NCBI GenBank assembly: GCA_950022655.1
Contig: OX465584.1
Location: 65,492,937 to 65,556,936 of the forward strand
DNA from: Alentia gelatinosa
Lineage: Eukaryota; Annelida; Polychaeta; Phyllodocida; Polynoidae
Reading direction: 5' to 3'
DNA length: 64,000 nucleotides
How positions within the stretch are numbered: the stretch's first letter is position 1; each line of letters begins with the position of its first letter. The notes under the pieces are model-generated. The model saw only the letters and a program-made list of their open reading frames with translations. It was not told the DNA's origin and searched no databases. A program made the position numbers and the translations under genes. Positions 8,199-62,250 of the stretch are shown one piece after another.

Positions 8199-8700
8199 CT
8201 ATGTTATTACCCACCGATTACGGAGTCTCCATAGGAAATGTATAGGGCACCTAAATACAACTACCCGGAGATTCTGACATGTCAGAATCTCCTGCAGAAG
8301 ATTCCAGAAAAATAGTCCTGTCCATAATGAGGTCAAATCATCATGTACTTTGAAATAAGTTTCTTGAATGTTCATTCAATGTTAGTTATTTAGAAGCAAT
8401 CATAATAATCTCATTTATCATCAGAAATCATTGTAATAATACACTTTGCATGCTAAAAGTACAGGCTAATTACTGCCACGCTTAACAGTGCTGTGGTGTC
8501 TGGAACTAAATGAATTAAAGAAACATTTTTATTACAATAGATTTGTTATAATCTTGTAGGTGGGTAATAAATACAATAACGACTGGTTTTGTATACGAGT
8601 GACCGTAATCTCCTCGTAGCTAATCGCTCGGATATTACTACGCGTCAACTACTCGGAGATTACGGCCACTCGTATCAAAACCAGTCATTATTGTGTATGT
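8199..8700 (+). mobile_element. Family B bipartite foldback element, copy 1
   Basis: The left end TTATTACCCACC (about 8200) has an inverted copy GGTGGGTAATAA (about 8560-8572). Immediately right is a palindrome of about 44-bp arms (about 8575-8620 and 8652-8697) around a 29-nt spacer. The left end continues with GAGTCTCCATAGGAAATG, as in copy 2 at 43986. It encodes nothing. Confidence 0.75.
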
Positions 8701-10814
8701 AAAGCCAGGACATGTACTCCAGAATATCAAATAGCACCCAGGGTGCTATGGATTCATGTTTTATCGCAGAATAGCGCCCCAGTTGAAATCGTTGCTCCAG
8801 ATTCTTTGCAGATCGCATTATAACTATGCCACCATCTCTATTCAATTAAAAATCTAATGAACCTTTCTACTATGTCACTGAAAATCTGGTGTTGTAAAAA
8901 GTAGTCATACAACGTGAAAATAACAATACCACACAACACGATCTGATATTACTGGAGCAACGCTTTTCTCAGATTTCTAGGAGCAACGAACCTCTGGGTA
9001 ACTAGCTGGTTCCCGACGGTGGCTCTCTGTATCCCCTAATGGCGCTAGGTACCAGCGCCCATGAGGCTAAACACCTACACACCAGGAACAAGCAGACCGA
9101 CCCCAAGGGGGCCCTTGAGAGGACGGAAGGGTCATTAAGTACACCGAGGGGGGATGAGTGGGCGGGCTCGGGGCGACTATTAAAGTTTACAGAGATGGGG
9201 ATTTGATGGCGTGATGAAGATGAGCGTAATTATACAAATATAACAATAACGAAATGATTTACACACTTTGTATGATAAATACATGTATACAAGTAAATGG
9301 ATATCAAAAACTGACACTTAAACATTGATTAGTATGCCATTTATCTCATTCCTTAACTTTTGGATTTTCAGTATTTCGATTAATCTTGCATACACTAGTA
9401 CTGATCGGGCTCAGGGTAAACAAAGAAAATTAAAAAAAAACAAAAAACATGTAATTCTAAAATATAAAACGTTCCTGACTGTACTTTTGGAGAGAAAAAA
9501 TATAATCAGGGTAATTTAGTTTAAAACCATCGACAAAGATATTGCACAGTAGTGGGGGTGTAATTAGTGACCCTTTAGTAGTTGCTTCGGTAGCTAGCTC
9601 ATTGTCTTATATTCTTCCGTCTTCTTACTTATGTAGAGAGTTTTAGGGGATAGAAATACTTGCTTAGCGGAGTCACCGAGACACGGTGACCTCACATCTC
9701 GATGACCTGAGAGGAGGAAAGATGAACACTGCAATTAAAGTTAATCGCTTTAATCTCCTGAGAGCAATCTGTGTTATACAAATACAGGCAGTATTATCCA
9801 ATGCGATGTTTTAGTCTCCTTGACCATGTTGTACAAACCATATACAAAATTTCAGCTTAATGTCCATAAATGTTCTGTTTCATTCAATCTTCCATAGTTC
9901 ACATCATCCTTGCAGTGGTTCACTTCATTTCCTATGTTTTGCTGGATTAGTTGTGAGTCCTAGTGTTCATCAGTAGATGTTATAAGTTTAGTCCACACAT
10001 TCTGTGTTCTCTCCACTGAGAGGTTGTTACTCACACGTCAGTCTGTAGGTAACTAACAGAACAGGGAATCCACACATTGAATGTCTATAGTAGATGACTC
10101 CACTCTCACGTGATGAAGTCTCCGGCACCTAACCCTACTCCAGTGGGTGCAGGATTTTGTAGCTCAGCTAGATCTTACTCCTCGCACCTTTGTGCTGCCT
10201 CTGGCAGCTGCAACGAAGGTGTACTCCTCCGCTGCTTAAAACACCTGGTCACGTGACCAGCCATACGCTCTAGAAGCTTCCTCCTGTTTACATTCTGCTA
10301 CTAACATTCATGTGCTTCCACCATCTCTATGTGATGTTAATTGAATAAAGAATAACACAATCTCAGACAAGCGCGCAGTGCAATATTGAAAGTAAATGAA
10401 TCGATAAAAATGAACGACCATTGGTGTTTCTTTTCAGATTATTCATTACTGGTCCGCTTTTTTTTTCCTTTTGATATCATTGAATTGCAAGTACTTACAT
10501 TTCCTTTTTGCAGTTTCAGATAGTAAAAACTATTACTATGACACTTGTATAAATCTGTATTGCTGAAAAACAGTATTTTACAGGTGCCGATAAAAGCTGC
10601 ATCTTGTGTCAGATTGGTTTTCTAGTCAAAGCCCAATATGAAGTAACACATTTGCTTTCACACATCTAGCTCAAATAAAATATGCATATATAATCAAGTG
10701 AGCTTTGGTATCTATGAATGAAATATCATCAGATGAATAAAGACGTACATATTTCATAAAGGTGTTACAAAAAGAGAGAAAGGAGATGAGAGATGAGGCC
10801 ACAAATCTTCTTCA
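8701..10814. other. No gene recognised
   Basis: Mostly unique sequence with no convincing coding frame. Small items: a 17-bp palindrome TAGCACCCAGGGTGCTA (about 8732), and a palindromic E-box GGTCACGTGACC (about 10248-10259) close to a GAAGCTTC-type heat-shock-like word. Frames of about 60 codons here are not supported. Confidence 0.5.
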
Positions 10815-11105
10815 TTATCCTACCTTTAATAAAAAACGCCATAGGCTTAACATGGGATTTGTTTATGTCACGGGTGTGACATAAAGTGCTGTTTATGCCA
10901 CTACTTTCTGATGCTGAAAAAATATGGAAACGGGGTAGGATAAAATCTAGACGCCACTCGTTTGAGTTTGAGCTTATTTATGCCACGCATTTTGTTGGCT
11001 CCATAATTTTACGAGTCGAAGGCGAGTGACATTACGGAGCCAACAAAATGAGTGGCATAAATAAGCTCAAACTCAAACGAGTGACGTCTCTTCATATTAT
11101 ACAAT
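10815..11105 (+). mobile_element. Family A bipartite foldback element A1
   Basis: Module 1: TTATCCTACC (10816) with its inverse GGTAGGATAA (10934-10943). Module 2: a palindrome with arms of about 70 bp (10949-11099), with the apical word ACGAGTCGAAGGCGAGTGAC at 11011-11030. The left end shares CCATAGGCTTAACAT with other A copies. The direct repeat TCTTCAT (10809-10815 and 11099-11105) may be a target duplication, but A7 has similar right-end sequence, so this is uncertain. Confidence 0.8.
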
Positions 11106-11290
11106 TACAAAACCGGTACAGTATAACCCCGCTTCTGGGACACCTCGCTGAAGGGGACACCTCGCTTAAGAGGCCAGTTTGCTAGAAACAAAAATTCGTA
11201 TATAGTTTATTTTAATCCCGCTTAAGGGGACACCCCGCTTAAGGGGGCACTCTGCTCGGTACGGAGGGTGACCCCTGAAGTGGAGTTTTA
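11106..11290 (+). repeat. Dispersed repeat with CGCTTAAGGGGACAC words
   Basis: The phrase CCCCGCTTAAGGGGACACC and variants occur four times in about 150 bp. No coding signal. A weakly similar ACGCGGGGTGTGC segment occurs near 46355-46375. Family unknown. Confidence 0.45.
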
Positions 11291-11853
11291 CTGTATTTTG
11301 GCACACAGTATTCCCGCTAGATGGCATCATTGAGATCATTGGAACCTTAGTGTTCCATTGATGTACGTCTTTAGCACGGGAGGCAGGCCAGTCGATTCTC
11401 AAGGCTCTAAGCCTAGTTGGTTAAGAATTCTTCTCCCATAGAGCGTATTGAGAGTACAGAATACCACTTAGAGAGTGTGAGATCTTATGAGAGGGTGCTC
11501 TGAAAGTGGGAAGCAATGGTCTGTGTACCTGAATGAGAACCAGTCAATGATCAAGTAGATCCATGGTAGCAGGCAAAGTGGAGAAGTAGTCCAGATAATG
11601 GACATGGACAGGAGGGTGGTTGAGGCCCCTAAGATTCGAGGTCAACTCTCGACCGTAGAACTGTCCCAAGGCGCTATAAATATCATGTAAGGCGGTCAGG
11701 GTCAAGGTCGGGGTTTCCTGCGAATGCAGTCATTGGCTACTCGGTCTACTCTATTCCTTATATGGACTTAGTGTAATGGGACAACTCCATGCTGACAGAG
11801 TCCTCTCCTCGATTCACTTATCTTACTTAACATACTTTCTTGAATATAGTCCA
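11291..11853. other. No gene recognised
   Basis: Unique-looking sequence between repeats, with no convincing frame or element boundaries. Confidence 0.5.
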
Positions 11854-12133
11854 TTATCCTACCCCTAATATAAAGTCCCATAGGCTTAACATTGAGTTTC
11901 TGTATGCCACGCTGACTGGCATGCGAAGTTTTATATGCCACTAGTGGCATACAGAATTGTTATCACGTAATATTCCAAAATCGAGGAGACGGGGTAGGAT
12001 GCAATAAAAACCTGATTTGTTTTAATCTTGGCCACCATATGCCACTCCTGGAGTTTGCCTCATGAAGTCACTACGCCAAACTCCAGTCGTGGCATACGGT
12101 GGCCAAGATTAAAACTCATCCAGTTTTACGATA
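11854..12133 (+). mobile_element. Family A bipartite foldback element A2
   Basis: Module 1 runs from TTATCCTACCCC (11854) to GGGGTAGGAT (11991-12000). Module 2 is a palindrome from about 12007 to the shared right end CCAGTTTTACGATA (12133). The left arm near the apex is shortened compared with A3, leaving GCCTCATGAAGTCAC. Confidence 0.8.
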
Positions 12134-12440: not shown

Positions 12441-12443
12441 AAC

Positions 12444-18186: not shown

Positions 18187-19795
18187 GTGAGGAGGGGTGA
18201 GGTAGGTGGAGTGGTAGTCATAGGATGCAGGGACTGGAGCCTGTATCACTGTGAGGAGGGGTGAGGTAGGTGGAGTGGTAGTCATAGGATGCAGGGACTG
18301 GAGCCTGTATCACTGTGAGGAGGGGGAGGTAGGTGGAGTGGTAGTCATAGGATGCAGGGACTGGAGCCTGTATCACTGTGAGGAGGGGTGAGGTAGGTGG
18401 AGTGGTAGGCATAGGATGCAGGGACTGGAGCCTTATCACTGTGAGGAGGGGTGAGGTAGGTGGAGTGGTAGGCATAGGATGCAGGGACTGGAGCCTTATC
18501 ACTGTGAGGAGGGGTGAGGTAGGTGGAGTGGTAGGCATAGGATGCAGGGACTGGAGCCTGTATCACGGTGAGGAGGGGTGAGGTAGGTGGAGTGGTAGTC
18601 ATAGGATGCAGGGACTGGAGCCTGTATCACTGTGAGGAGGGGTGAGGTAGGTGGAGTGGTAGTCATAGGATGCAGGGACTGGAGCCTGTATCACTGTGAG
18701 GAGGGGTGAGGTAGGTGGAGTGGTAGTCATAGGATGCAGGGACTGGAGCCTGTATCACTGGAGGAGGGGTGAGGTAGGTGGAGGAGGGGTAGGCATAGGA
18801 TGCAGGGACTGGGGCCTGTATCCCTGTGAGGAGGGGTGAGGTAGGTGGAGGAGGGGTAGGCATAGGATGCAGGGACTGGAGCCTGTATCACTGTGAGGAG
18901 GGGTGAGGTAGGTGGAGTGGTAGGCATAGGATGCAGGGACTGGAGCCTGTATCACGGTGAGGAGGGGTGAGGTAGGTGGAGTGGTAGGCATAGGATGCAG
19001 GGACTGGAGCCTGTATCACTGTGAGGAGGGGTGAGGTAGGTGGAGTGGTAGGCATAGGATGCAGGGACTGGAGCCTGTATCACTGTGAGGAGGGGTGAGG
19101 TAGGTGGAGTGGTAGGCATAGGATGCAGGGACTGGAGCCTGTATCACTGTGAGGAGGGGTGAGGTAGGTGGAGTGGTAGGCATAGGATGCAGGGACTGGA
19201 GCCTGTATCACTGTGAGGAGGGGTGAGGTAGGTGGAGTGGTAGGCATAGGATGCAGGGACTGGAGCCTGTATCACTGTGAGGAGGGGTGAGGTAGGTGGA
19301 GTGGTAGGCATAGGATGCAGGGACTGGAGCCTGTATCACTGTGAGGAGGGGTGAGGTAGGTGGAGTGGTAGGCATAGGATGCAGGGACTGGAGCCTGTAT
19401 CACTGTGAGGAGGGGGAGGTAGGTGGAGTGGTAGGCATAGGATGCAGGGACTGGAGCCTGTATCACAGTGAGGAAGGGTGAGGTAGGTGGAGGGGTAGGT
19501 ATAGGACGCAGGGACTGGAGCCTGTATCACTGTGAGGAGGGGTGAGGTAGGTGGAGTGGTAGGCATAGGATGCAGGGACTGGAGCCTTATCACTGTGAGG
19601 AGGGGTGAGGTAGGTGGAGTGGTAGGCATAGGATGCAGGGACTGGAGCCTGTATCACTGTGAGGAGGGGTGAGGTAGGTGGAGTGGTAGGCATAGGATGC
19701 AGGGACTGGAGCCTGTATCACTGTGAGGAGGGGTGAGGTAGGTGGAGGGGTAGCATAGGATGCAGGGATTGGAGCTAGCATCACGGTGAGGAATG
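18187..19795 (+). repeat. 64-bp minisatellite, about 25 units (T3a)
   Basis: Highly uniform 64-bp units of the form GTGAGGAGGGGTGAGGTAGG, TGGAGTGGTAGGCATAGGAT, GCAGGGACTGGAGCCTGTAT, CACT. Few substitutions and occasional 1-bp deletions suggest recent homogenisation. The many minus-strand Pro/Ser/Thr-rich frames are repeat translations. Confidence 0.97.
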
Positions 19796-19875
19796 GTGGG
19801 GTAGGTGGAGGAGTAACCGTAGGAGTGAGATAGGTGGAGGGCTAGGAAAGGGACATAGAGACTGAGGCCTGAGTC

Positions 19876-20570
19876 CTGATGAGGAGGGGTGGGGTAGGTG
19901 GAGGGGTACAGGGACTGAAGCCTGTATCACAGTGAGGAGGGGTGGGGTAGGTGGAGGGGTACAGGGACTGAAGCCTGTATCATGGTGAGGAGGGGTGGGG
20001 TAGGTGGAGGGGTACAGGGACTGAAGCCTTTATCACAGTGAGGAGGTGTTGGGTAGGTGGAGGGGTACAGGGACTGAAGCCTGTATCATGGTGAGGAGGG
20101 GTGGGGCAGGTGGAGGGGTACAGGGACTGAAGCCTGTATCACAGTGAGGAGGGGTGGGGTAGGTGGAGGGGTACAGGGACTGAAGCCTTTATCACAGTGA
20201 GGAGGTGTTGGGTAGGTGGAGGGGTACAGGGACTGAAGCCTGTATCATGGTGAGGAGGGGTGGGGCAGGTGGAGGGGTACAGGGACTGAAGCCTGTATCA
20301 CAGTGAGGAGGGGTGAGGTAGGTGGAAGGGTACAGGGACTGAAGCCTGTATCATGGTGAGGAGGGGTGGGGCAGGTGGAGGGGTACAGGGACTGAAGCCT
20401 GTATCACAGTGAGGAGGGGTGGGGTAGGTGGAGGGGTACAGGGACTGAAGCCTGTATCACAGTGAGGAGGGGTGGGGTAGGTGGAGGGGTACAGGGACTG
20501 AAGCCTGTATCACAGTGAGGAGGGGTGGGGCAGGTGGAGGGGTACAGGGATCACAGTAAGGAGGGGGAAG
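19876..20570 (+). repeat. 53-bp variant of the same minisatellite, about 13 units (T3b)
   Basis: The units lack an 11-bp piece (GGCATAGGATG) of the 64-bp unit and carry GTGGGG instead of GTGAGG. Units ending in CATGGTGAGG alternate with units ending in CACAGTGAGG, and a GGTGTTGGGTAGG variant recurs at about 20045 and 20205, suggesting higher-order repeats. An 80-bp irregular stretch separates it from T3a. Confidence 0.93.
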
Positions 20571-21030: not shown

Positions 21031-21479
21031 TCTCCACGGGCCACGGGCTTCCAGCACAGTTCTTAATTAGGCTTTGTAGTGAAAGGTTGAGGTGTGAATT
21101 GATAACCCTGTTCGCCTTCCTCCTGCTTTCTCCGTCTACCTCGGAAAGGCGACGTGTCTTTAACTTTTTCTTTAGTGGAAACTCTGATACCAAAGTCGTA
21201 TCTAAATTCTAAAGTCCCTAGCTGCGCCTGAGAGTTATTGTTAGCCAAGTGGTTATCACGTGCAAAAGGGACGATGATTAGATTTGGGAATATGATATTA
21301 TTATCAGTTGTGAATAGTTAGCTGAATGAATGACTCCAAGGCTTCGTCCTGTTACAAGCTTTATTGCTGGTGTAATATCGACACACTGGAAAATAGGAGG
21401 AACATCCAATTGTTATGTGTGATGTATTTGTATATTATAGACTACAGTATTTGGACACTTATAGAATACATAGACAATA

Positions 21480-21835
21480 ATCGATGGTTTTGTGGACAGG
21501 CGGCCGTAAACCACGAGAGGTTGACGCGTAGTAATACACGAGCGTTAGCCGTCTGTCCACAAAACCATCGTTTGTTGTATTTATTATCTATATTCTCCAA
21601 TAAAATAAACCCAGTTATTGCCATATTAAAAGGTACAACAATAGGGACTATTTCTTTGCTCTATAGCACAAAGGGACTATTTTTCCCGTATACCATGGTT
21701 TTGAGGCCGTATACCACAGGTTTGAATCCGTATACCACAGTTATGGTATCTGACAGGTTTTATACAATGGGTCGTGGTTTACTGAGTCCCCATACATATT
21801 CAATGGGGGCTTTGTATACGTTGAATAATAAAAAA
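21480..21835 (-). mobile_element. Bipartite foldback element D (minus orientation)
   Basis: Palindrome 21481-21571 with arms of about 27 bp (CGATGGTTTTGTGGACAG and its complement), and GACGCGTAGTAATA in the loop. To its right is TTTATTATC (about 21577). The opposite end reads on the minus strand TTATTATTCAACGTATAC (about 21830), resembling families B and C. A 181-codon plus-strand frame over it (21326-21871) is not protein-like. Confidence 0.6.
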
Positions 21836-29862: not shown

Positions 29863-30029
29863 GGTTCTACAGTAGAACATGGACTTGTAGAGAGGAAGCT
29901 GAGAGACTCTCTACATTAATGTGCTGACACTTTTATCTCCTCGTACCATGCCATCTAACAGGGTAATGGGCATTGAGGGAACTAGACCCCTGCGCTTCTC
30001 TGAGACGGGTGAACGGGTCTACCATCACT

Positions 30030-32052
30030 GAAATACAACATCTACTGACAGCTTTCAACATCTACCAAATATCACTAAGATACAACATCTACTGACACCT
30101 TTACAAATCTACCAAATATTACTAAGATACAACATCTACTGACAACTTTACAAATCTACCAAATATAACTAAGATACAACATCTACTGACACCTTTACAC
30201 ATCTACCAAATATCACTAAGATACAACATCTACTGACAACTTTACACATCTGCCAAATATCACTAAGATACAACATCTACTGACAGCTTTACACATCTAC
30301 CAAATATCACTAAGATACAACATCTACTGACACCTTTACACATCTACCAAATATCACTAAGATACAACATCTACTGACACCTTTACAAATCTACCAAATA
30401 TCTCTAAGATACAACATCTACTGACAACTTAACACATCTACCAAATATCACTAAGATACAACATCTACTGACACCTTTACACATCTACCAAATATCACTA
30501 AGATACAACATCTACTGACACCTTTACACATCTACCAAATATAACTAAGATACAACATCTACTGACAACTTTACAAAACTACCAAATATCACTTAGATAC
30601 AACATCTACTGACACCTTTACAAATCTACCAAATATCACTAAGATACAACATCTACTGACAACTTTACAAATCTACCAAATATCTCTAAGATACAACATC
30701 TACTGACACCTTTACACATCTACCAAATATCACTAAGATACAACATCTACTGACACCTTTACAAATCTACCAAATATTACTAAGATACAACATCTACTGA
30801 CACCTTTACAAATTTACCAAATATTACTAAGATACAACATCTACTGACACCTTTACAAATCTACCAAATATCTCTAAGATACAACATCTACTGACACCTT
30901 TACAAATCTACCAAATATCACTAAGATACAACATCTACTGACAACTTTACAAATCTACCAAATATCTCTAAGATACAACATCTACTGACACCTTTACACA
31001 TCTACCAAATATCACTAAGATACAACATCTACTGACAACTTTACAAATCTACCAAATATCACTTAGATACAACATCTACTGACACCTTTACAAATCTACC
31101 AAATATCACTAAGATACAACATATACTGACAACTTTACAAATCTACCAAATATCTCTAAGATACAACATCTACTGACACCTTTACAAATCTACCAAATAT
31201 CACTAAGATACAACATTTACTGACACCTTTACAAATCTACCAAATATCTCTAAGATACAACATCTACTGACAACTTTACACATCTACCAAATATCACTAA
31301 GATACAACATCTACTGACACCTTTACACATCTACCAAATATCACTAAGATACAACATCTACTGACACCTTTACACATCTACCAAATATAACTAAGATACA
31401 ACATCTACTGACAACGTTACAAATCTACCAAATATTACTAAGATACAACATCTACTGACACCTTTACAAATCTACCAAATATCTCTAAGATACAACATCT
31501 ACTGACAACTTTACACATCTACCAAATATCACTAAGATACAACATCTACTGACACCTTTACACATCTACCAAATATCACTAAGATACAACATCTACTGAC
31601 ACCTTTACACATCTACCAAATATAACTAAGATACAACATCTACTGACAACTTTACAAATCTACCAAATATCACTTAGATACAACATCTACTGACACCTTT
31701 ACAAATCTACCAAATATCACTAAGATACAACATCTACTGACAACTTTACAAATCTACCAAATATCTCTAAGATACAACATCTACTGACACCTTTACACAT
31801 CTACCAAATATCACTAAGATACAACATCTACTGACACCTTTACACATCTACCAAATATAACTAAGATACAACATCTACTGACAACTTTACAAATCTACCA
31901 AATATCACTTAGATACAACATCTACTGACACCTTTACAAATCTACCAAATATCACTAAGATACAACATCTACTGACAACTTTACAAATCTACCAAATATC
32001 ACTAAGATACAACATCTACTGACACCTTTACAAATCTACCAAATATAACTAA
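30030..32052 (+). repeat. 47-bp minisatellite, about 43 units (T5)
   Basis: Unit: ACTAAGATACAACATCTACT, GACACCTTTACAAATCTACC, AAATATC; exact 47-bp spacing. Variants (ACAACTTTAC, TCTCTAAG, ATAACTAAG, ACTTAGATA) recur in the same order at 30401 onward and 31482 onward, so a block of at least six units was duplicated 23 units away. It continues past element L2. Confidence 0.97.
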
Positions 32053-32346
32053 CCCCAATGCCCATCTACCGATTTCAGAATATTCATGTACCTTTATCTG
32101 TGACAAACGGACGGTAATTAGTCTCAGGCGAGGCACCTTAAAGGAATCGGCCGTAGTTGGTAGATAGGCAAGGGTGAGCCACCGATTAGTAGACTTATTT
32201 GTTTAGGAACAATACCCACCAACCCCTCTCCTTGATTTCTACCTGTCGAGCGAACGGTTACGTAATTTGGCTGCGACAAGTTCACCGACTCCTATACAAT
32301 TTGCGAGCTAATCGTGCAACCCTTAATCGGTAGATGGACACTGGGC
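32053..32346. mobile_element. Family L MITE, copy 2, inside the 47-bp array
   Basis: CCCAATGCCCATCTACCGAT at the left and ATCGGTAGATGGACACTGGG at the right, 294 bp. The array sequence resumes immediately right of it (TTTAGATATAACATCTACTG), so it inserted into T5. Confidence 0.85.
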
Positions 32347-32590
32347 TTTAGATATAACATCTACTGATACCTTTACACATCTACAAAATATCATTAACAT
32401 ACATATACTGACAACTTTACATATCTACCAAATACCAATAAGATACAACGTCTACAGACAACTTTACACATGTACCAAATATCACTAAAATACATCATCT
32501 ACCAATACCTTTACACATCTATCAAATATCACTAAAAAATCAAAATCTACTGACAGCTTTACACATTTACCAAAGTTTGAAAAAATACAC
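32347..32590 (+). repeat. Diverged tail of the 47-bp array
   Basis: About five units with clear divergence and length changes, the decayed edge expected of a minisatellite. Confidence 0.85.
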
Positions 32591-32930
32591 CAGCTACTGA
32601 CAACTGTACATATCTGCCAAATATCACTATGTATTGCTATGCATGTTGCTATGCAACACTGGCATGGCGACATCATAGCCGCATCGATGTAGTATGTTTA
32701 CATTTTACAGGCTTCAAAATCCTACTATTTAAAATCTTTTACATTAATTTCCAGCATGAAATACCTCCATACTTAGTTGTTACATACAACGAGGAGTAGT
32801 TGATTGTTCAACAAAGCGATCTGAACTCACCTCCATCGCCATAATCCAGTCACCTCACCCCAAGTAAAAGTATGTAAACATAGTGTTATCACTCACAGGT
32901 ATATAGGAATAGAGTATCATCAATTATCTT
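32591..32930. other. No gene recognised; RFX-like palindrome and an E-type end
   Basis: GTTGCTATGCAAC (about 32645-32657) resembles an RFX X-box. GGTATATAGGAATA (about 32898) is the module-1 right end word of family E, without a matching left end. Confidence 0.35.
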
Positions 32931-32933
32931 ACC

Positions 32934-33274
32934 CCTGGTGCAAGGTTAGCCATGGGAATAATATTAGAAAAAAATACTCAACGATCACCCCCGTAAAGTG
33001 ATAATACTACACCACGGTCGTGGCACAGTGAATTTGAGATGACGTCATATAAATTTGCCAAGTCTATTCTAATTATTTTGAAATTTTGATGATATCTAAT
33101 GTCATAAAAAGGGGTGAGATAAATCCAGAACCGCGTGCACTCAAATCGTAAAATGCACAAAACTCCACTCGTTTGAATGGGCCATAATCGTCACTCGGCT
33201 TCGCTTCGATGACTATTGCGGCCCATCCAAACTCGTGGAGTATTGTGTATTTATACGATTCTCGATGCAGTTCT
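32934..33274 (+). mobile_element. Family A bipartite foldback element A8 (diverged)
   Basis: TTATCTTACCCC (32934) and inverse GGGGTGAGATAA (33111-33122). Palindrome 33125-33274 with arms of about 70 bp; apex CGTCACTCGGCTTCGCTTCG (33189 on). It sits directly left of E3. Confidence 0.78.
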
Positions 33275-33277
33275 ATA

Positions 33278-33602
33278 TATTCCTATATACCCATTATTGA
33301 ACTAGATAGAGTTACATACCGGTGCTGGGGGGTGCATTAAAAATAAGTTATGTGTCAAGGTTGACGTTTTCGTCCCGCTCTCATGTTTTTGTCCCGCTCT
33401 GACGTTTTTGTTCCGCTCTGATCACGTGATAAAATACAGCAGCGGGACGAAACAATAGCTGTTGTGGTTACTCAATAAGGGTGGTCACTTGCTTCGGAAG
33501 TGTTTCACGTAAAGAATTAAGCATTTTTATCAATATTTGAAGGTATATAGGAATAGGGAAACCAAGTACCGGTAAGCATGATCACCGGAACATAGTTTCC
33601 CT
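33278..33602 (+). mobile_element. Family E bipartite foldback element E3
   Basis: Left TATTCCTATATACCC (33278), inverse GGTATATAGGAATA (33541-33554), then a hairpin GGGAAACCAAGTACCGGT / ACCGGAACATAGTTTCCC (33555-33602). The interior has three short CCCGCTCTGACGTTTTTG-type direct repeats. Confidence 0.7.
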
Positions 33603-35060: not shown

Positions 35061-35062
35061 GA

Positions 35063-36159
35063 CACTGCACGAAAACCACCAGTTTATTCCTATATATGCC
35101 ATCGCGGAAGTATATGTATCGGCTGTATATTGACTTTTTTTCATATATATATATGCCCATATTTCACGCCAGCGTATAAGGCGTATAAAATACCGTTTCC
35201 ATTTAAATATGGATGCGATTTGGCTGTATTTCACACCTGGCGTATATGAGAGGAATTAACCTCTGCGCAATATATATATGCCAGGCGTATATGTGTACAA
35301 GTAGAATTTAAAAAAGGTTCCCCCCACCCTTTTTCTCTGGTGTAGGGAGAGCTGGCAAGCGAGTGGGTATTGGTAGAAGTTGTACCAACACTGACCCTCT
35401 GTCTCCCGCCTAACCTCTGCCTTCAGTTACAGCTACATCTACTAAGCTACAGATAAGCATTCACACCATGGCCGAACCCGGCTGGGTACCGGTTCGGGAG
35501 GTGTCGCATTAGGCGGGAGGTGGCGGGTCAAGTGGGAGGTGTCGGGTCAGGCGGGAGGTGTCGGGTCAGGCGGGAGGTGTCGGGTCAGGCGGGAGGTGTC
35601 GGGTCAGGCGGGAGGTGGCGGGTCAGGTGGGAGGTGGCGGGTCAGGTGGGACTGGACTAAAGTCAGCAGCTTCTGGCTGGGGTAATTTCAGGATTCAACT
35701 GTAAGTTCGAACAGGGCCATTAAATACTGGACCTGGACTGACGACACCTAGAAATGGTGTTTTAAAGTAAAATCTATTAGAAAAACTGTAAAAAACCAAC
35801 ATAATGCAGGGTTTATAATGTGTAATTAATCAATTTATACTCAGTCAGGTTTTATAATGGTTTTATAAAATAAATATAAGATTGTATTTTTCTTAAAATG
35901 CAGACTTAGATGGTTAATGGACAACGAAATATGCTACCAGTAGCGTCCCGAAGTGGCAGATATTGGAACTATTCGATAGTGGTGTAAATACAAGAGAATC
36001 AGGCGTATATGTGATGTATATTTGACCGCACCATGGATGCTTATATACCCCTACAGATGAGGCATATACCCATGGGGAATAGAACGCCCTTGTATATGCA
36101 AAAGCATACCTATATACGCCGGGCGCATATATATGTAAAATGGTGGTTCTCGTGCAGCG
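35063..36159. mobile_element. Family M: large element or two partial copies
   Basis: CACTGCACGAAAACCACCA at 35063 and TGGTGGTTCTCGTGCAGCG at about 36141-36159 form inverted ends. Near each end are GCGTATATG-type words (CCAGGCGTATATGTG, TATACGCCGGGC). About 1.1 kb with no RT or transposase frame. It could be one element containing a 19-bp array, or two truncated copies. Confidence 0.5.
35498..35650 (+). repeat. 19-bp tandem repeat, about 8 units
   Basis: Units of GGTCAGGCGGGAGGTGTCG with a GTGGCGGGTCAGGTGGGAG variant at the right edge. Confidence 0.9.
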
Positions 36160-38700: not shown

Positions 38701-38706
38701 TAGGAA

Positions 38707-41421
38707 GTGCTAAGTTATATTACAACACATTGCAAAGCGAGTATGTGTATGTTTCAAATCCCAAACTATTCTCTCGCCAGAAACGATAGGCAATGGCTTA
38801 ACGAGAAAGGGGAGGTGAAGGTAGGGGGCGGTGTAGGGGCTTATATCAGAGACGACATCGACTTTGAAATCCTTCACAATTTGAATGTGAGTAACAGCAA
38901 CCTAGAAAATCTATGGCTATTAACTAAACCCCCTCATCAAAAGAAACAGCTCGTATGTGTGATCTATCGGCCGAATCATGGCAACGTGGGTACCTTTGTT
39001 GATACATTGTTAGAACAGATAAACGAAGTAGAACGTAAGTATAATGCTGAAATAACCTTGATAGGAGACTTCAACATTAATTATTCTGACAACAACAACC
39101 TTGATAAACAACTACTAAGGAATATAGAAACAGAAGCAAACTTAATCCAACATATTAAAACCCCAACTAGATTTGCCAACACAATCGATCTAATATTTAC
39201 TAACATGCAACATATAAAGGAAGCTAAGGTTATAAATTACAATATTAGTGACCATAGTAGTATCTGCATTACCAAAAAGAAAGACAAGTGCAAATATGAA
39301 CAAAAACAATTCTTTGGGCGCTCCTACAAAAATTATTCTAAAGACATAATGCAAACCAACCTCAGGGAGATAGACTGGACAAATTTCCAAATTCACACAG
39401 ATCCAAATATAGCATGGAAAGATATGTTGTTCCAGATTGAGAGATGTCTTGATATACAATGCAAAATGAAGATGCACCAAATCAAATACATAGAGGAGCC
39501 ATGGCTCACTAATGACATCATAGGTCAAATACTTGAAAAAGATAACGCCTGGAAGCAGGCAACCCGATCAAACTTAGAGGCAGACTGGAGTAATGCTAAA
39601 CGATTAAGAAATCAGGTAAAAAGCGCTATACTAAGGGCCAAACAGAATTATATACAGGAACAACAGCACTTGGACACAAACAAATTCTGGTCAAAAATAA
39701 ACAAACTCCTTCCAAACAGCTCAAACAAGTCCACCTTTAAACTAAAGGATCTGGCAACTAACATAGACATCGATGACAACCTAGTTGCTGATCACATAAA
39801 TAACTATTTTACGGACATTGGTGCCAACCTTGCTGATAAATTTGCGGGAAATTGGAATCCAGTTGATGCCCACCCCGACATAGTTATGGATAATGTAATC
39901 ATTTATGAAGATGAGGTGTCGGACATGGTCAATACTATTGCCATTGGCAAATCATCTGCAGTTGATGGAGTATCATCACGTATATTCAAGGATAGTTTTG
40001 AAATACTGATACCCCAGTTGACTTTTCTCTTTAACCTGATACTAACCACATCAACATACCCCGATGACTGGAAAAAGGCGAAAGTTACCCCGATTCCCAA
40101 ACCAGGGTTCAAGCACGAAGTAAACAACCTACGCCCCATCTCATTGCTATCTCTCCCAGGGAAGCTATTCGAAAAAATCATCCATAAACACATATCAAAT
40201 CACCTTAATAGTCACAACCTGCTGAGCGCTAACCAAGGGGGTTTCAGGAAAAACTTTTCAACATCCCAGACAATTGCTGACTATACTGATGACATATTGA
40301 TAGGAATAGACCAAAAGGAAATTACAATAGCTGCTTACCTAGACTTTACAAAAGCTTTCGACACTGTTCACCACAAGATATTAATTCAAAGATTAACTAA
40401 CATCGGAATAAACACGCAAATAATAAACTGGACTAAAAATTACTTAACCAATAGATACCAGAGCACAGTAGCAAACAGTAAACTATCCGCTCCCAGACGC
40501 ATCTCATATGGGGTCCCGCAGGGATCGACACTTGGCCCGCTTTTCTTTATAATATTTATCAACTCCCTTGAAACCGCCCTTGAACACTGCAAGATAAGAA
40601 TGTACGCAGATGATGCAGTCTTATATATCACAGGCGAAAATCACGCAGACCTCGTCAAACTGCTACAAAACGACCTGTCGAGAGTCTATAACTGGTGTAA
40701 TCAAAATAAACTTACGATCAACCTGAAGAAGACTAAGGTACAAACATTTGGTTCTAAAACCATCCTTACCCGCACGCCCGACACCAAGCTAACACTTGGT
40801 AATGTAGACTTAGACGAAGTCCACAGCTTCAAATATCTAGGTGTCACTCTGGATAGCTCGTTAAATTACTCACAATACATCAAGGATATAATCAAAAAGG
40901 TTGCACACAAAAACTACATGCTCTCGTTCATCCGTAAATATCTAACACAACAGCAAGCCATCATGATATATAAAACTAAAACTCTACCGTACTTAGACTA
41001 CGGAGGAGTACTAATACATGACACTCACAGCACTCTCCTTACCCAACTGCAAAGATGTCAGAATAAAGCACTCAGAATTTGTTATAACTCTAAAAACCGC
41101 ATACCCACCAATATCCTCCACAAATCGTTTAAGTTGAACTACCTAAATGATCGCAGAATTATCCAACTACAAAAACTAGCCTACAAACGTAGCAAAATCC
41201 ATAGAAACTTATTAGAACAAACTCGAGAAACACGTCTCCACGATGGTCCGGTTATGAAAATAAAACGTCATATACGCACAAGCAAGTATAAAGAATCAGT
41301 TATGTACAAAGTAGCCAGTCACTGGAATAAACTGAGTCCCACATTGAGGCTTACCCCCACGGAGAATGACTTCAATACTGCTATCAAACAGTTACAACGC
41401 AGGAAAATCCAACATTACTAA
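38707..41421 (+). CDS. LINE ORF2 (5'-truncated): partial endonuclease plus reverse transcriptase
   Basis: 904 codons open to the stop. The first 16 or so residues are probably flanking sequence. Homology to the ORF2 at 4614 begins at QIPNYSLARND, so the endonuclease's first metal-binding block and the TESW block are absent. LIGDFNINYSD and ISDHSSICI remain. The RT is complete by eye: RPISLLSLPGK, GGFRKNFST, FTKAFDTVHH, GVPQGSTLGP, MYADDAVLY (YADD at about 633-636) and FKYLGVTLDSS. C terminus normal (ASHWNKLSPTLR). It differs clearly from the other LINE in this window, so it belongs to a related but separate family. Unlikely to be autonomous because the endonuclease is broken; the intact RT frame suggests a recent insertion. 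Confidence 0.9.
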   Translation: MLSYITTHCKASMCMFQIPNYSLARNDRQWLNEKGEVKVGGGVGAYIRDDIDFEILHNLNVSNSNLENLWLLTKPPHQKKQLVCVIYRPNHGNVGTFVDTLLEQINEVERKYNAEITLIGDFNINYSDNNNLDKQLLRNIETEANLIQHIKTPTRFANTIDLIFTNMQHIKEAKVINYNISDHSSICITKKKDKCKYEQKQFFGRSYKNYSKDIMQTNLREIDWTNFQIHTDPNIAWKDMLFQIERCLDIQCKMKMHQIKYIEEPWLTNDIIGQILEKDNAWKQATRSNLEADWSNAKRLRNQVKSAILRAKQNYIQEQQHLDTNKFWSKINKLLPNSSNKSTFKLKDLATNIDIDDNLVADHINNYFTDIGANLADKFAGNWNPVDAHPDIVMDNVIIYEDEVSDMVNTIAIGKSSAVDGVSSRIFKDSFEILIPQLTFLFNLILTTSTYPDDWKKAKVTPIPKPGFKHEVNNLRPISLLSLPGKLFEKIIHKHISNHLNSHNLLSANQGGFRKNFSTSQTIADYTDDILIGIDQKEITIAAYLDFTKAFDTVHHKILIQRLTNIGINTQIINWTKNYLTNRYQSTVANSKLSAPRRISYGVPQGSTLGPLFFIIFINSLETALEHCKIRMYADDAVLYITGENHADLVKLLQNDLSRVYNWCNQNKLTINLKKTKVQTFGSKTILTRTPDTKLTLGNVDLDEVHSFKYLGVTLDSSLNYSQYIKDIIKKVAHKNYMLSFIRKYLTQQQAIMIYKTKTLPYLDYGGVLIHDTHSTLLTQLQRCQNKALRICYNSKNRIPTNILHKSFKLNYLNDRRIIQLQKLAYKRSKIHRNLLEQTRETRLHDGPVMKIKRHIRTSKYKESVMYKVASHWNKLSPTLRLTPTENDFNTAIKQLQRRKIQHY

Positions 41422-43593: not shown

Positions 43594-43897
43594 TTATCCT
43601 ACCCCTAATATAAAATCCCCTAGGCTTAACATTGAGTTTCTGTATGCCATGCTGACTGGCATACAGAGTTTTATATGCCACTAGTGGCATACAGAATTTT
43701 TATTACATAATAATCCAAAATCGAGGAGACTGGGTAGGATAAAATTAAAACCTGATTCGTTTTAATCATGACCACCGCATGCCACTCCTGGAGTTTTGGC
43801 TCCGGACTTCACCCGGCTTCGCCTCATGAAGTCACTTTGCCAAACTCCAGTCATGGCATACGGTGGCCAAGATTAAAACTCATCCAGTTTTACGATA
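43594..43897 (+). mobile_element. Family A bipartite foldback element A3
   Basis: TTATCCTACCCC (43594), inverse GGGTAGGATAA (to 43742), palindrome 43745-43897 ending CCAGTTTTACGATA. Apex ACTTCACCCGGCTTCGCCTC (43806 on). The fullest A2/A3/A4 copy. Confidence 0.85.
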
Positions 43898-43985
43898 GTA
43901 TATGGAATGATTAGTCACATGATGCAAAATGAATTGCTGACTGACTATAACATTACTGGCTGCTAATGACATTTGATATTTTTTA

Positions 43986-44527
43986 TTACCCACCTAATAC
44001 TGAGTCTCCATAGGAAATGTATAGGGCACCTGGAAACAGTTACCGGGAGATTCTGGCATGTCAGAATCTCCTGCAGGAGATTCCGGAAAAATAGTCCTCT
44101 CCATAATAAGGTTGAATCATCATGTACTTCGAATTAAGTTTCTTGAATGTCTATTCAATGCTAATTATTTAGAATCAATCAAAATGATCTTATTCATCAT
44201 AAGAAAATACACTTTGTATGCTAAAATCCCAGGTTAATGGCGAACTATATTATAGGTGTCAGTCTGCACCGAATTACTGCCACACTTAACAGTGCTGTGG
44301 TGCCTGGAACTAAACGGCTTACACAAACTTTTTAATTGCAATAGATTTCTGATTAATCTTGTAGGTGGGTAATAAATACAATAACGACTGGTTTTGTATA
44401 CGAATGACTGTAATCTCCTTGTAGTTGACGACGTAATATCCTCGCAAATCACTCGGATATTACTACGCGTCAACTACTCGGAGATTACGGCCACTCGTAC
44501 ACAAAACTAGTCATTAGTGTGTATGTA
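43986..44527 (+). mobile_element. Family B bipartite foldback element, copy 2
   Basis: TTATTACCCACC (43986), inverse GGTGGGTAATAA (about 44364-44375). Palindrome 44378-44520 with arms of about 62 bp reaching inward to GTAATATCC / GGATATTAC, so only about 13 nt remain at the apex. Similar to copy 1 along its whole length apart from small indels. Confidence 0.82.
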
Positions 44528-45309: not shown

Positions 45310-45760
45310 ATTCAGGTGGATGCAGAAATGGCAAGTTGAATGGGTCCAAGTGGGCTACTATAGAGGAAACCCAAGAAGGTTTAGGGTCTGAGCTCGTATC
45401 CCATCGAGTTTGAATCGTGTAGTAATTCACAAGGCGAAGCCGCGTGAATTGCTATGTGATTCAAATGAGATGGGATCGAGCTTTGACCCTAAATTGAATG
45501 GGTTTCTGAATTTATCTCACCCTTAATATTGACTAATGGGCTAACATTTGTGACCTTATCCCCCATTGGATATTTTTCCTAAATATTTAATGGGTGTTAG
45601 ATATGAGTTTCCAATGTTAAGTCTATGGAGAAAAAATATATTGGGTGAGATAAAGAATGCTATCCATAGACTTAATGTAACCCAAACCTTTTATTGCTGC
45701 TCCTTCATAAGTGCACGCTCATTCGTAAATGATGAACATACCATTTGCTCCTAGTTTGTT
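45310..45760 (+). mobile_element. Family G copy 5, split by foldback element A9
   Basis: Left part AAATGGCAAGTTGAATGGGT (about 45327) and right part TTAATGTAACCCAAACCTTT (about 45672 on) are about 20-30 bp apart in copy 1. A9 lies between them. Confidence 0.65.
45374..45653 (-). mobile_element. Family A bipartite foldback element A9 (minus)
   Basis: On the minus strand it starts TTATCTCACCC (45653) and CCATAGACTTAACATTGG follows. The inverted copy is at 45512-45522, and the palindrome covers 45374-45505 with apex AATTCACAAGGCGAAGCCGC (45424 on). Confidence 0.75.
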
Positions 45761-48137: not shown

Positions 48138-48415
48138 TTATCCTACCCCTCATATTAATCTCCATAGACTTAACATGGTGTGACTGTATGCCACGGTTAT
48201 GGCATTAAATATTTATATGCCACTGGTGACATATGAGGTTAAAAACATGTGACAGGGTAGGATAAAATCTAAACATCACTCAATTTCATATAATTGTTTA
48301 TATGCCATTCATTGCCGCTACAGATACCACTCAGCTCCGCTTCGTGATATCATGCCGCGAAGACAACTCATGCCATATAAACAATCATATGAAATTTCGG
48401 GATGTTTCATGATAT
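48138..48415 (+). mobile_element. Family A bipartite foldback element A5
   Basis: TTATCCTACCCCTCATA (48138), inverse GGGTAGGATAA (48255-48265), palindrome to about 48412 with apex CCACTCAGCTCCGCTTCGTG (48328 on). It abuts N2. Confidence 0.8.
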
Positions 48416-48760
48416 TATTACATACCTATGGCCGAACGTCTATGAAATACTACCCGCTGCTATGGGTGCAATATAGATAATGTTCGGGCGCACTGCGCCC
48501 GTAGGGAATATTCGGGCACACTGTGACAATCGGGTGAATTGATAGATATGATAAGTATTTGAAATGGCCTTTTTGTTGAATTTATGTATGTAATAATAAG
48601 AAAACGTACCGACTGAGCCCGTAGGGATGCCATTCTCGGCCTTTTTATGCCATGAATACGTCCCGACGCCGCAGGCGTCGGGACGTATTCATGGCATAAA
48701 AAGACCTCGAACGGCCATCCCTTCGGACTCAGTAACCACGTTTTCTCTTAATACGGGACA
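48413..48760 (+). mobile_element. Family N bipartite foldback element N2
   Basis: ATTATTACATAC (48413) and inverse GTATGTAATAAT (about 48586-48597). Then a palindrome of about 72-bp arms (48600-48757) in which the inner 31 bp on each side are a perfect match around a 3-bp centre (GACGCC, GCA, GGCGTC). Confidence 0.82.
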
Positions 48761-49567: not shown

Positions 49568-49843
49568 TTATCCTACCCTTAATAAAAAAAGCCATAGGCT
49601 TAACATGGGATTTGTTTATGTCACGGGTGTGACATAAAGTGTCGTTTATGTCACTACTTTCTAATACTAAAAAAATGTGGAAACGGGGTAGGATAAAATC
49701 TAGACGCCACTCGTTTGAGTTTGAGTTTACTTATGTCACTCATTGTGTTGGCTCCATAATGTCACTCTTCTTTGACTCGTGAAATTATGGAGCCAACAAA
49801 ATGTGTGACATAAATAAACTCAGACTCAAACTCGTGACGTCTC
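49568..49843 (+). mobile_element. Family A bipartite foldback element A7
   Basis: TTATCCTACCC (49568), inverse GGGTAGGATAA (to 49696), palindrome 49702-49842. Same subfamily as A1 (AGACGCCACTCGTTTGAG arm). Apex GTCACTCTTCTTTGACTCGT (49761 on). Confidence 0.82.
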
Positions 49844-49869
49844 TTTCTAATGCTGCTTGTAAATTAGAA

Positions 49870-51468: not shown

Positions 51469-51540
51469 TATCCCCATCTGAAATGTCTCACCAAGACTCA
51501 CAATCCCTATCTTGTCATGTTGCTATTCACATACTCGATA

Positions 51541-52500
51541 TTATCCTACCTCCCATACAAATCTCCATAGACTTAACATGGAGTGACTGTATGTCATGGT
51601 TATTATCCTACCCCTCATACAAATCTCCATAGACTTAACATGGAGTGACTGTATGTCACGGTTATTACCCTACCCCTCATACAAATATCCATAGACTTAA
51701 CATGGTGTGACTGTATGTTACGGTTACTATCCTACCCCTCATACAAATCTCCATAGACTTAACATGGAGTGACTGTATGTCACGGTTATTACCCTACCCC
51801 TCATATAAATCTCCATAGACTTAACATGGTTTGACTGTATGCAATGGTTATTATCCTACCCCTCATATAAATCTCCATAGACTTAACATGGTGTGACCGG
51901 ACTCTTAGATGTTATACTCTAATTTTGTACTTCAAAGCTACATGGGAGAATTGTCACACTTTATGCTCTCCAAAGTCTATATTGTTCTATTTATATCTAT
52001 TTTCCGATGTTGTATATATGTTGCGTTATAGCGCCACAAAACGGAGACTGTATCTACTGGTAAACTGGTTATGCGTTAAGACCAGTCCCTCGGGACTGAG
52101 CATTTAGCCAGTCTAAATAAATGTCTTAAAAAAAACAAAAAAAAACTGTATGCCACGGTTATTATCCTACCCCTCATATAAATCTCATAGACTTAACATG
52201 GTGTGACTGTATGCCACGGTTATTATCCTACCCCTCATATAAATCTCCATAGACTTAACATGGTGTAACTGTATGCCACAGTTATGCCATAAAATATTTA
52301 TATGCCACGGATGACATATGAAGTTAAAAACATGTAACAGGTAGGATAAAATCTAAATGTTACTCAATTTCAAATAATTTGTTTACATGTCATTCATTGT
52401 CTTCTGCTACAGATATCACTCAGCTCTGCTTCGTGATATCATTCTGTGAAGATAACTCATGCAATATAAACAATCATATGAAATTTTGTGACATTTCTTG
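51541..52500 (+). mobile_element. Family A foldback element A6 with left end amplified about 8 times
   Basis: The left 62 bp of an A5-like element (TTATCCTACCCCTCATA, CCATAGACTTAACATGG, GACTGTATGCCACGGTTA) is repeated head to tail about eight times (51541, 51603, 51665 and on to 52223). One complete copy follows (inverse GGTAGGATAA at about 52339, palindrome with apex ATATCACTCAGCTCTGCTTC at 52413, to about 52500). A truncated LINE splits the array. Confidence 0.8.
51898..52145 (+). mobile_element. 5'-truncated LINE end nested in the A6 array
   Basis: 248 bp ending AATAAATGTCTTAAAAAAAA. Left flank GGTGTGAC and right flank CTGTATGCC rejoin the array unit with a one- or two-base overlap. The end resembles the 3' UTR of the LINE at 1918-7870. 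Confidence 0.75.
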
Positions 52501-52559
52501 ATAATACAGTTGAAATACTGAAAACAAAGTCAGCCATGTTGTAATATGTGTAGGGATCA

Positions 52560-54847: not shown

Positions 54848-55151
54848 TTATCCTACCCCTATTATAAAATCCCATAGGCTTAACATTGAGTTTCCGTATG
54901 CCACGCTGACTGGCATACAGAGTTTTATATGCTACTAGTGGCATACAGAATTGTTATCACGTAATATTCCAAAATGGAAGAGACGGGGTAAGATAAAATC
55001 AAAACCTGATTTGTTTTAATCTTGGCCACCGCATTTCACTCCTAAAGTTTTGGCTCCGGACTTCACTCGGCTTCACCTTATGAAGTCATTATGCCAAACT
55101 CAAGTCGTGGCATATGGTGGCCAAGATTAAAACTCATCCAGTTTTACGATA
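54848..55151 (+). mobile_element. Family A bipartite foldback element A4
   Basis: TTATCCTACCCC (54848), inverse GGGGTAAGATAA (to 54996), palindrome 55001-55151 ending CCAGTTTTACGATAA. Apex CTTCACTCGGCTTCACCTTA (55061 on). Ends may be flanked by TA. Confidence 0.85.
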
Positions 55152-57983: not shown

Positions 57984-58050
57984 ATTTAATGCAGCCAAAT
58001 ATCGAGATACAAACTAACGGTTTGCCACCTGAATATAGTCCAAGTTCCTG

Positions 58051-60499: not shown

Positions 60500-61660
60500 T
60501 ATCATCCACCTTATACAAAGTGTCAATAGTAAACCTATAGAAACTCTGCATGTTTGGACATACCCAGCATATAAGAATATGTTATATCATCCACCTTATA
60601 CAAAGTGTCAATAGTAAACCTATAGAAACTCTGCATGTTTGGACATACCCAGCATATAAGAATATGTTATATCATCCACCTGATACAAAGTGTCAATAGT
60701 AAACCTATAGAAACTCTGCATGTTTGGACATACCCAGCATATAAGAATATGTTATATCATCCACCTTATACAAAGTGTCAATAGTAGACCTATAGAAACT
60801 CTGCATGTTTGGACATACCCAGCATATAAGAATATGTTATATCATCCACCTGATACAAAGTGTCAATAGTAAACCTATAGAAACTCTGCATGTTTGGACA
60901 TACCCAGCATATAAGAATATGTTATATCATCCACCTTATACAAAGTGTCAATAGTAAACCTATAGAAACTCTGCATGTTTGGACATACCCAGCATATAAG
61001 AATATGTTATATCATCCACCTTATACAAAGTGTCAATAGTAAACCTATAGGAACTCTGCATGTTTGGACATACCCAGCATATAAATATATACGTATATGT
61101 TATATCATCCACCTCATACAAAGTGTCCATAGCAAACCTATAGAAACTCTGCATGTTTGGACATACCCAGCATATATGAATATGTTATATCATCCACCTG
61201 ATACAAAGTGTCCATAGTAAACCTATAGAAACTCTGCATGTTTGGACATACCCAGCATATAAGAATATGTTATATCATCCACCTGATACAAGGTGTCCAT
61301 AGTAAACCTATAGAAACTCTGAATGAACATACCCGACACATACAGATATGTTATATTATCCATCTAATACAAGGTGTCCATAGTAAATCCATAGGATCTC
61401 TGTATGGATATACCCAGAGCATACAGATATGTTGTAATATCCACTTGATACAAAGTGTCCATAGTAAACCTATAGGAACTCTGTATGGACATACCCGGCG
61501 CATACAGATATGTTGTATCATCCACCCATACAAAGTGTCCATTGTAAACATATAGGAACTCTGTTTGGACATACCCGACACACACAGATATGTTATAATA
61601 TCCATCTAATACAAGGTGTCCATAGTAAATCCATAGGATCTCTGTATGGACATACATGGC
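60500..61660 (+). repeat. 85-bp minisatellite, about 13-14 units (T8)
   Basis: CATCCACCTTATACAAAGTG recurs every 85 bp (60503, 60588 and on), with ACCTATAGAAACTCTGCATG and TTTGGACATACCCAGCATAT in each unit. Uniform on the left, increasingly diverged after about 61320. Confidence 0.95.
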
Positions 61661-61739
61661 GCCTACGAAATGTTGTATGCTCCGGGCTGCAGAAAAATAG
61701 TGCATATGACAAAATAGTGCATAACTAAAGTGAACTCCG

Positions 61740-62250
61740 ATCGGAATGCCACCAGTTGGGTTGTTGATACGAAGTAAAACTCCGAGCGAAAACGAGGATC
61801 GTTACTTCGTGTCAACTACAAGGAGAATACGGCCACTCAGATCGAAATCATGGTAACGTTGTATTTATTATTCACCTTTCGAGTAATTATTAGGGAAAAA
61901 ACCTTGTAAATAATCAGAAATTCGACCCAAGCGCTCTGCATTGTTCATATAAGTTAGTTCCTATAATGCCCGTCAGGTGGCCGAAAAAACCGTATTCTCC
62001 TAGGAGATTCCGGAGGTCCGTATTCTACTCAGTAGCGATCTGTAGGCTCCACAAGCTTAGCATGGAGACTTCGTATTAGGTTGGCAATAAAGATAAATAA
62101 CAAATACAATATACACTTGTTTCAGATAAAAGCGGTTATATAATATATGCTCCTCGGAGTTGACCCCATACCATTTACTCGCATGCGCTCGGATATTACT
62201 ACACCTCATCTCCTCGGAGCATACGAAACCCGTCAATATTGTGTATGTTT
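61740..62250. mobile_element. Bipartite foldback element C, hairpins on both sides
   Basis: The central module (about 61856-62098) is bounded by TTGTATTTATTATTCACC and GGCAATAAAGATAAATAA. On the minus strand its end reads TTATTGCCAACCTAATACG, then AAGTCTCCATG, homologous to B. A palindrome lies on its left (61750-61852, GATACGAAGTAA / TTACTTCGTGTC) and another on its right (about 62145-62225, TGCTCCTCGGAG / CTCCTCGGAGCA), ending ATATTGTGTATGT like B. Confidence 0.65.

Follow-up and report, generated by a model that had tools for sequence, protein, structure and literature searches.

The window analysed here, a 64-kb stretch of contig C6 of the polychaete Alentia gelatinosa (assembly of 1,234,393,884 bases in 101 contigs), contains short elements that combine a conserved left end, an inverted copy of that end farther inside and a long hairpin. 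These elements are probably (about 0.75 in our own estimate) non-autonomous rolling-circle transposons of the Helentron/HINE kind, in which TC/TC internal loops would give the hairpin strand-specific recognition. Twelve complete elements of 277–545 bp were mapped by coordinates in the window, 11 on the plus strand and one on the minus strand (Table 1). The unusual part is the recurrence of unpaired CTCG positions together with the narrow range of hairpin length, both of which are absent from the initial annotation of this window.

All 12 window elements follow one plan: a subterminal inverted repeat (subTIR) of about 12 bp beginning 5'-TTAT, an interior, the inverse subTIR, a spacer of 2–5 nt, a hairpin of 121–148 nt and a tail of 5–7 nt ending in TA. 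The subTIR types found paired with a matching inverse are TTATCCTACCCC, TTATCTCACCCC, TTATCTAACCCC, TTATTACCCACC, TTATTATCCACC and TTATTACATACC; subTIR and inverse change together from family to family. A subTIR differs from its own inverse by a mean of 0.9 mismatches and from the inverses of other elements by 3.4, a contrast partly built in because the scan demanded a 10/12 match; this threshold does not account for there being distinct matching pairs at all. The initial annotation had proposed several families on one plan, with a hairpin rather than a second terminal inverted repeat (TIR) forming one boundary. Both proposals hold for the mapped elements, in which distinct subTIR/inverse pairs occur in the same order of parts and the second inverted copy lies internal to the hairpin. 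The 3' ends of the window elements, about 130–160 bp beyond the end of the inverse, were placed in part by the TA-tail rule. Independent support for this rule comes from the elements at four empty sites (see below), which end in TA, and from N1 and K1, two elements of different families that abut head to tail with zero bases between them: N1 ends in ...CATGATA at 48414 and the left end of K1 begins at 48415.

The same plan is recovered by pattern scans and is lost from shuffled sequence. A strict scan, defined as a TTAT 12-mer, its inverse 60–1600 bp on and a hairpin directly after the inverse, found 11 left/inverse/hairpin combinations with 8 distinct hairpins in the window and none in each of 50 local dinucleotide shuffles. 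The relaxed scan covered 318,270 bases, namely the window and 38 other stretches fetched from the same genome (L-numbered loci, a few overlapping), and gave 43 raw matches compared with none in each of 20 shuffles; 40 matches were left after removal of overlaps, with rows 12, 15, 23 and 30 doubtful. With the same code, the plan was absent from 71 foreign loci (28 viral and 43 prokaryote stretches; 568,321 bases) in which the left-end motif occurs by chance. On sequence read in reverse order, the relaxed scan gave 15 matches, most of them elements of the same kind seen as their complement, and this control is not independent of the elements. At least two of the 15 (window 61436–62824; L001 1446–1940) are not of the plan, and the relaxed scan therefore carries some false positives. 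Exact matches to the motif CCATAGNCTTAACAT, which follows many left ends closely on the inner side, number 52,478 genome-wide (26,257 forward and 26,221 reverse), compared with 4 forward and 2 reverse matches for the pattern read backwards. In 264 kb unselected for the motif (the window and L021–L040, all within one 2-Mb region), 28 plan matches (4 doubtful) and 28 more hairpins of 100–165 nt correspond to about one element or hairpin per 5 kb, the further hairpins being not all proven members.

Paralogous empty sites show that left end, inverse and palindrome enter the genome together, as a single insertion, and leave no target-site duplication (TSD). We compared the joined flanks of 39 relaxed-scan matches with all fetched DNA of the same genome using BLAST. 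Six of the 39 gave junction-spanning matches, of which one lies within a tandem array (L008), one comes from a doubtful row (L037) and four were read base by base. These are the L013 element CCATT[TTATCC...GTTGATA]TTAG against L020 CCATTTTAATCC, the L032:7302 element CCTAT[TTATCC...CTTGATA]AAACGCC against window 35062–35241 CCTATATATGCC, the L036 element AGTCT[ATTATCC...ACGATA]GTACGCC against L004 AGTCTGTACACC, and the L030:4022 element CTTTTA[TTATCC...CTATGTA]TCTCATCC against L037 CTCGTATCCCATCG. Left end, inverse, hairpin and tail are jointly missing at all four empty sites, and none of the four shows a TSD. The empty-site paralogues are 76–79% identical for the first three and 88% for the fourth (BLAST), and single junction bases (T|T, T|A, T|G and A|T) are uncertain because the paralogues have diverged. 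Independent insertion of the left module and the palindrome, which the initial annotation had named as the outcome that would overturn its proposal, thus failed at these paralogous sites. Its view that the elements are not plain miniature inverted-repeat transposable elements (MITEs) is borne out as well: the second inverted copy is internal, and TIRs at both termini accompanied by a TSD were not found.

The hairpins are similar in length and paired in their arms across families. Among the 43 raw matches the hairpins span 108–183 nt, with 28 of them between 136 and 147 nt. A hairpin-only scan added 50 rows (47 distinct), among them an AT run and duplicates arising from overlap between loci; 25 of the 50 span 136–152 nt, and several lie by other subTIR-like sequences. 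Hairpin statistics were calculated for 33 of the 40 matches, leaving out the four doubtful rows and rows 8, 13 and 22, whose hairpin calls were shortened. These 33 hairpins form 11 sequence clusters. The hairpin arms co-vary between families: the pairing of an arm with its own partner is 0.78, compared with 0.14 for partners taken from dissimilar hairpins. With arms paired position by position, ten hairpins that all measure exactly 141 nt have 79.5% of their positions paired; redealing the right arms among the elements gives a mean of 53% and a best value of 72.5% in 500 trials, and sliding the arms by 1–3 bases gives 31–39%. This set includes four close A-family copies and three hairpins from one cluster. 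The z-scores of twelve single-strand DNA folds lie between -5.3 and -15.4. Long hairpins of 137–185 nt also stand by other end-like sequences such as GGTATATAGTAA and GGTATATAGGAAT (L005, L013/L014, L016, L023, L027, L035 and L040), and these may be further families of the same kind.

Symmetric TC/TC internal loops recur near positions 10, 40 and 67 of the hairpins, with CTCG tending to occupy both arms of one strand. Left arms carry (C)ACTCG, and right arms, read on the same strand, carry CTCGTG in place of CGAGTG, so that CTCG opposes CTCG and TC opposes TC. We measured the unpaired fraction in the 33 hairpins plus the 29 orientable ones of the 50 (62 in total; 45 hairpins in 8 clusters after a length filter and duplicate removal). 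The cluster-weighted unpaired fraction of the left arm is 0.52 at position 10, 0.64 at 11, 0.66 at 40, 0.56 at 41 and 0.56 at 66; it is 0.45 at position 12 and at most 0.40 at the other positions among the first 66. The two strongest cluster-weighted 4-mer strand asymmetries are ACTC/GAGT (31.4 to 6.6) and CTCG/CGAG (24.9 to 4.4), counted with cluster lists hand-copied from the clustering of the 33 hairpins. The same two pairs again rank first and second in 16 hairpins outside the set, oriented by their upstream sequence (36 to 13 and 31 to 11), which are not fully independent because some share families with the first set. CTCG outnumbers CGAG in 12 of these 16, is outnumbered in one and equals it in three. 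The L029 and L038 copies of the A family hold two CTCG and two CGAG each. Three A-family hairpins (window 10949–11089, L029:7233–7373 and L038:3946–4086) carry the apex in the opposite sense, with CGAG for CTCG as if flipped, and A1 also has a perfect outer box.

The order of parts is that of published HINEs and non-autonomous Helentrons, insofar as the accessible portions of the sources describe them. The plan itself is not new, having been published there already (PMC4067079, PMC7492417). The suggestion of an HUH-type enzyme in the initial annotation was well aimed at a class already known, because the plan is the published one; such an enzyme is the best candidate. Nothing points to a tyrosine recombinase, for which no aimed search was made. 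In the proposed mechanism, RepHel (an HUH nuclease joined to a helicase), supplied in trans, would nick at the subTIR end and displace one strand. The 3' hairpin would then fold on the displaced strand and stop the helicase as a rolling-circle terminator, the TC/TC loops would let RepHel tell the correct strand, and cleavage behind the terminal TA would free that strand for joining to the target. We infer a trans-acting RepHel that may read the displaced hairpin from the HINE plan, the Helraiser terminator and HUH enzymes that read mismatches, all by analogy.

HINEs of the mite Metaseiulus occidentalis and DINE-1 of Drosophila are non-autonomous Helentrons with an 11–15 bp subTIR at the 5' end, an inverted copy before a 3' palindrome and no TSD, according to the available text of PMC4067079. 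The Alentia elements share with them the part order, the lack of a TSD, internal microsatellite or tandem repeats and the occurrence of many families on one plan; tandem repeats inside some copies, a HINE trait, are seen where the 62-bp array runs into N2. The mite elements differ in having a palindrome of 5–10 bp and a 3' subTIR 38–60 bp from the end, whereas the hairpin here is mostly about 142 nt and has internal loops. We take the Alentia elements as a variant because the mite distances describe one species and are not a definition. Cg_HINE of Crassostrea gigas, as excerpted from PMC7492417, has satellite-like arrays between a 5' subTIR and a 60-bp right flank with a 3' subTIR and palindrome. 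It resembles the Alentia elements in the 5' subTIR, satellite-like inner repeats, 3' subTIR, 3' palindrome, absence of a TSD and exchange of modules among families. Its palindrome must be far shorter than the hairpin here because the whole right flank is 60 bp, and no inverted-repeat partner of its 5' subTIR is established in the part of that source available.

Canonical Helitrons are farther removed. The 3' hairpin of Helraiser acts as a terminator: about 90% of activity was kept when its stem was exchanged, and changing its loop had the effect of deleting the palindrome, in the accessible results of PMC4778049. The likeness lies in the terminator role and in the greater weight of the unpaired part over the stem there. 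The differences described in that text are the 5'-TC and CTRR-3' ends, a palindrome of 16–20 nt, insertion between A and T and the lack of inverted ends; the canonical ends are missing from all 12 window elements, which start with TTAT and end in TA as placed. Among HUH enzymes, TnpA-REP, IS608 and ISDra2 contact bases that are mismatched or left unpaired in imperfect hairpins; recognition by TnpA-REP is confined to a single strand (PMC8266576, in the sections available). REP/TnpA-REP and IS200/IS605 systems thus offer a likeness in an HUH enzyme, one strand, mismatched bases of an imperfect palindrome and a tetranucleotide. They are bacterial, with REP hairpins of 23–37 nt and no helicase in the portions consulted, and only the working principle is alike. 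A 3' hairpin of the length found in Alentia with recurrent internal loops was not found in the open-access literature consulted (Repbase was not searched), nor did four spellings of the apex word have a match there. The apex motif occurs in four viral contigs, by eye as chance matches.

Several observations weigh against the Helentron/HINE assignment with a protein-read hairpin. In the 141-nt set, 57 double changes and 100 extra pair types exceed the means of redealt arms (39 and 77) and lie within their maxima (58 and 105), values that some of the 500 redeals reached. RNAalifold on a MAFFT alignment of 24 hairpins gave only 7 consensus pairs, in our opinion because alignment on sequence alone loses the register of the arms. 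CTCG is missing from both N-cluster hairpins and from two of eight B-cluster hairpins, often with CTCA or TTC-type letters instead, and A1 has three CGAG and one CTCG. A TT junction appears at one of the four empty sites, where the paralogues have diverged, and a strict TT target was not seen. Helitron_like_N has one family match genome-wide (three candidates scored), at C7:36825292. The match lies in a decayed RepHel-coding locus, C7:36815000–36832000 (L041, L046 and L047), where Helitron_like_N, interrupted by stops, stands beside a PIF1-like helicase, both in broken frames. The presence of such a locus in the genome favours the assignment, but a pattern scan of its 17 kb met the end patterns only as loose, isolated matches, and none of the three scored candidates proved to be an autonomous partner with the ends described here.

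A protein reader may be dispensable if the CTCG mismatches of these HINEs descend from a single ancestral hairpin, or do no more than weaken a perfect palindrome that would otherwise be unstable, which we regard as unlikely. Common ancestry is itself likely because many hairpins share apex and length, yet loop letters and positions recur in stems that retain little sequence similarity. This alternative is also favoured by the instability of long perfect palindromes in genomes and by copies whose palindrome is nearly perfect (A1, L027:3236). Stability could be had from a mismatch of any kind, yet the one that recurs is a strand-specific tetramer.

The elements could instead be of the Helitron2 type, which uses the same rolling-circle mechanism with asymmetric terminal inverted repeats and hairpins at both ends. 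As given in the accessible text of PMC3627910, Helitron2 has its 3' repeat copy directly before the hairpin. The asymmetric terminal inverted repeats, the inverse immediately upstream of the 3' hairpin, the placing of the left repeat at the 5' terminus and the initial T are all shared with our elements. The published 20–30 bp from the 3' repeat to the end is not matched here, and the 5' hairpin of Helitron2, built from the repeat itself, has no consistent counterpart. Among 35 of the 40 matches folded over their first 125 nt, some have a short hairpin and 14 have z below -2, but the mean z is only -1.7 and the subTIR lies mostly outside the stem in the folds shown. We therefore consider a Helitron2 origin improbable. 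A DDE transposase acting on two unlike ends, with the hairpin as a binding array, is less probable still: with no transposase known here to carry these ends, the enzyme class is likely rather than proven, yet the four empty sites lack a target duplication and the plan fits rolling-circle elements. Chance juxtaposition of an independent TIR MITE and a foldback element is hardly credible, since for all the typical foldback shape of the palindrome and the common nested insertions here (the L030:4022 element, on the minus strand at C6:65.40 Mb with a TTATCCATCGTA left end, sits inside the hairpin of an E-type element), both parts are jointly absent at the four empty sites with no TSD, and 2–5 nt separate inverse and hairpin in 12/12 window elements.

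Within the Helentron/HINE reading, we tentatively envisage a very abundant Helentron lineage in which a 3' hairpin of about 142 nt, nearly uniform in length, may serve as a strand-specific address. Three symmetric TC/TC loops at fixed spacing would be read by protein while the stem drifts, so that the lineage would have diversified into numerous families, differing in stem and subTIR, that share a single reader or a few related ones.

The initial annotation had counted at least 17 elements; the families stand, and the count resolves into 12 complete elements plus remnants. N2 may extend over repeated left ends upstream. In the D elements an additional palindrome, short and almost perfect, lies some 60 nt in from the left end (GGAGATTCTGACATGTCAGAATCTCC in D1, 8265–8293; the D2 counterpart lies near 44050), and other short hairpins occur within the first 125 nt of non-D families. 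Replication-linked orientation domains were considered in view of 34 consecutive plus-strand places on C1 and the 11 plus-strand elements of the window, and were rejected: sampling 10 kb per 100 kb on C6 gave 17 plus and 13 minus, and the genome-wide strand counts given above are nearly equal. The same-strand run (34 places at C1:1777575–2864515, one array merged, among the matches listed) is probably an artefact of listing. The window also contains a NADAR-domain frame and two LINE-type reverse transcriptase frames (1995–3383, 4614–7493 and 38704–41421). Long tandem arrays at 18187–20550 and 30024–32629 (64/53-bp and 47-bp units) have no relation to the elements that we could see and show strong strand skew (GC skew 0.59 at 18–20 kb and -0.70 at 30–32 kb).

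Table 1. Elements, arrays, remnants and the empty site located in the window (positions in the 64-kb stretch).
Feature	Position	Strand	Left end	Inverse	Hairpin	Remarks
D1	8204..8701	+	TTATTACCCACC	GGTGGGTAATAA, 8559-8570	8573-8694	tail ends TA
A1	10815..11096	+	TTATCCTACC	10932-10943	10949-11089	hairpin nearly perfect, apex flipped
B1	11854..12133	+	TTATCCTACCCC	damaged, near 11990-12002	12007-12127	
Remnant hairpin	21460..21592	-				without mapped left end
F1	32924..33279	+	TTATCTTACCCC	33111-33122	33127-33274	3' end set by analogy
Paralogous empty site of L032:7302 element	35062..35241	+				
B2	43594..43897	+	TTATCCTACCCC	43731-43742	43746-43892	
D2	43983..44527	+	TTATTACCCACC	44364-44375	44378-44520	
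E1	45359..45653	-	TTATCTCACCC	45512-45523	45366-45506	
N1	48138..48414	+	TTATCCTACCCC	48254-48265	48271-48407	3' end adjoins K1 left end
K1	48415..48753	+	TTATTACATACC	48585-48596	48599-48746	
A2	49568..49849	+	TTATCCTACCC	49685-49696	49702-49842	CTCG at 9, 75 and 130 of hairpin
Tandem array, 62-bp unit	51539..51897	+	TATCCTACCCC			this left end and CCATAGACTTAACAT in every unit
Further stretch of 62-bp unit	52144..52285	+				runs into N2
N2	52162..52503	+		52339-52350	52355-52496	start placed at nearest left end
B3	54848..55151	+	TTATCCTACCCC	54985-54996	55001-55145	
Tandem array, 85-bp unit	60500..61648	+	TTATATCATCCACC			left end in every unit; no own hairpin mapped
Remnant	about 61700-61890					hairpin seen by eye only

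Recognition of the 3' hairpin by a Helentron protein is a question on which no experiment turned up in the literature consulted, the nearest being work on the reconstructed bat Helitron. The tendency of families with unlike stems to retain identical unpaired letters in matching positions resembles a natural selection experiment, separating the part that is read from the part that is merely folded. The families of Alentia gelatinosa supply concrete substrates, with loops open, closed or swapped, for binding and termination assays. Annotation built around short 3' palindromes may overlook or fragment elements of this sort, one left-end motif of which has the 52,478 exact matches noted above. The class is known, and our results suggest that the long, looped 3' hairpin is a variant of the HINE/Helentron kind.

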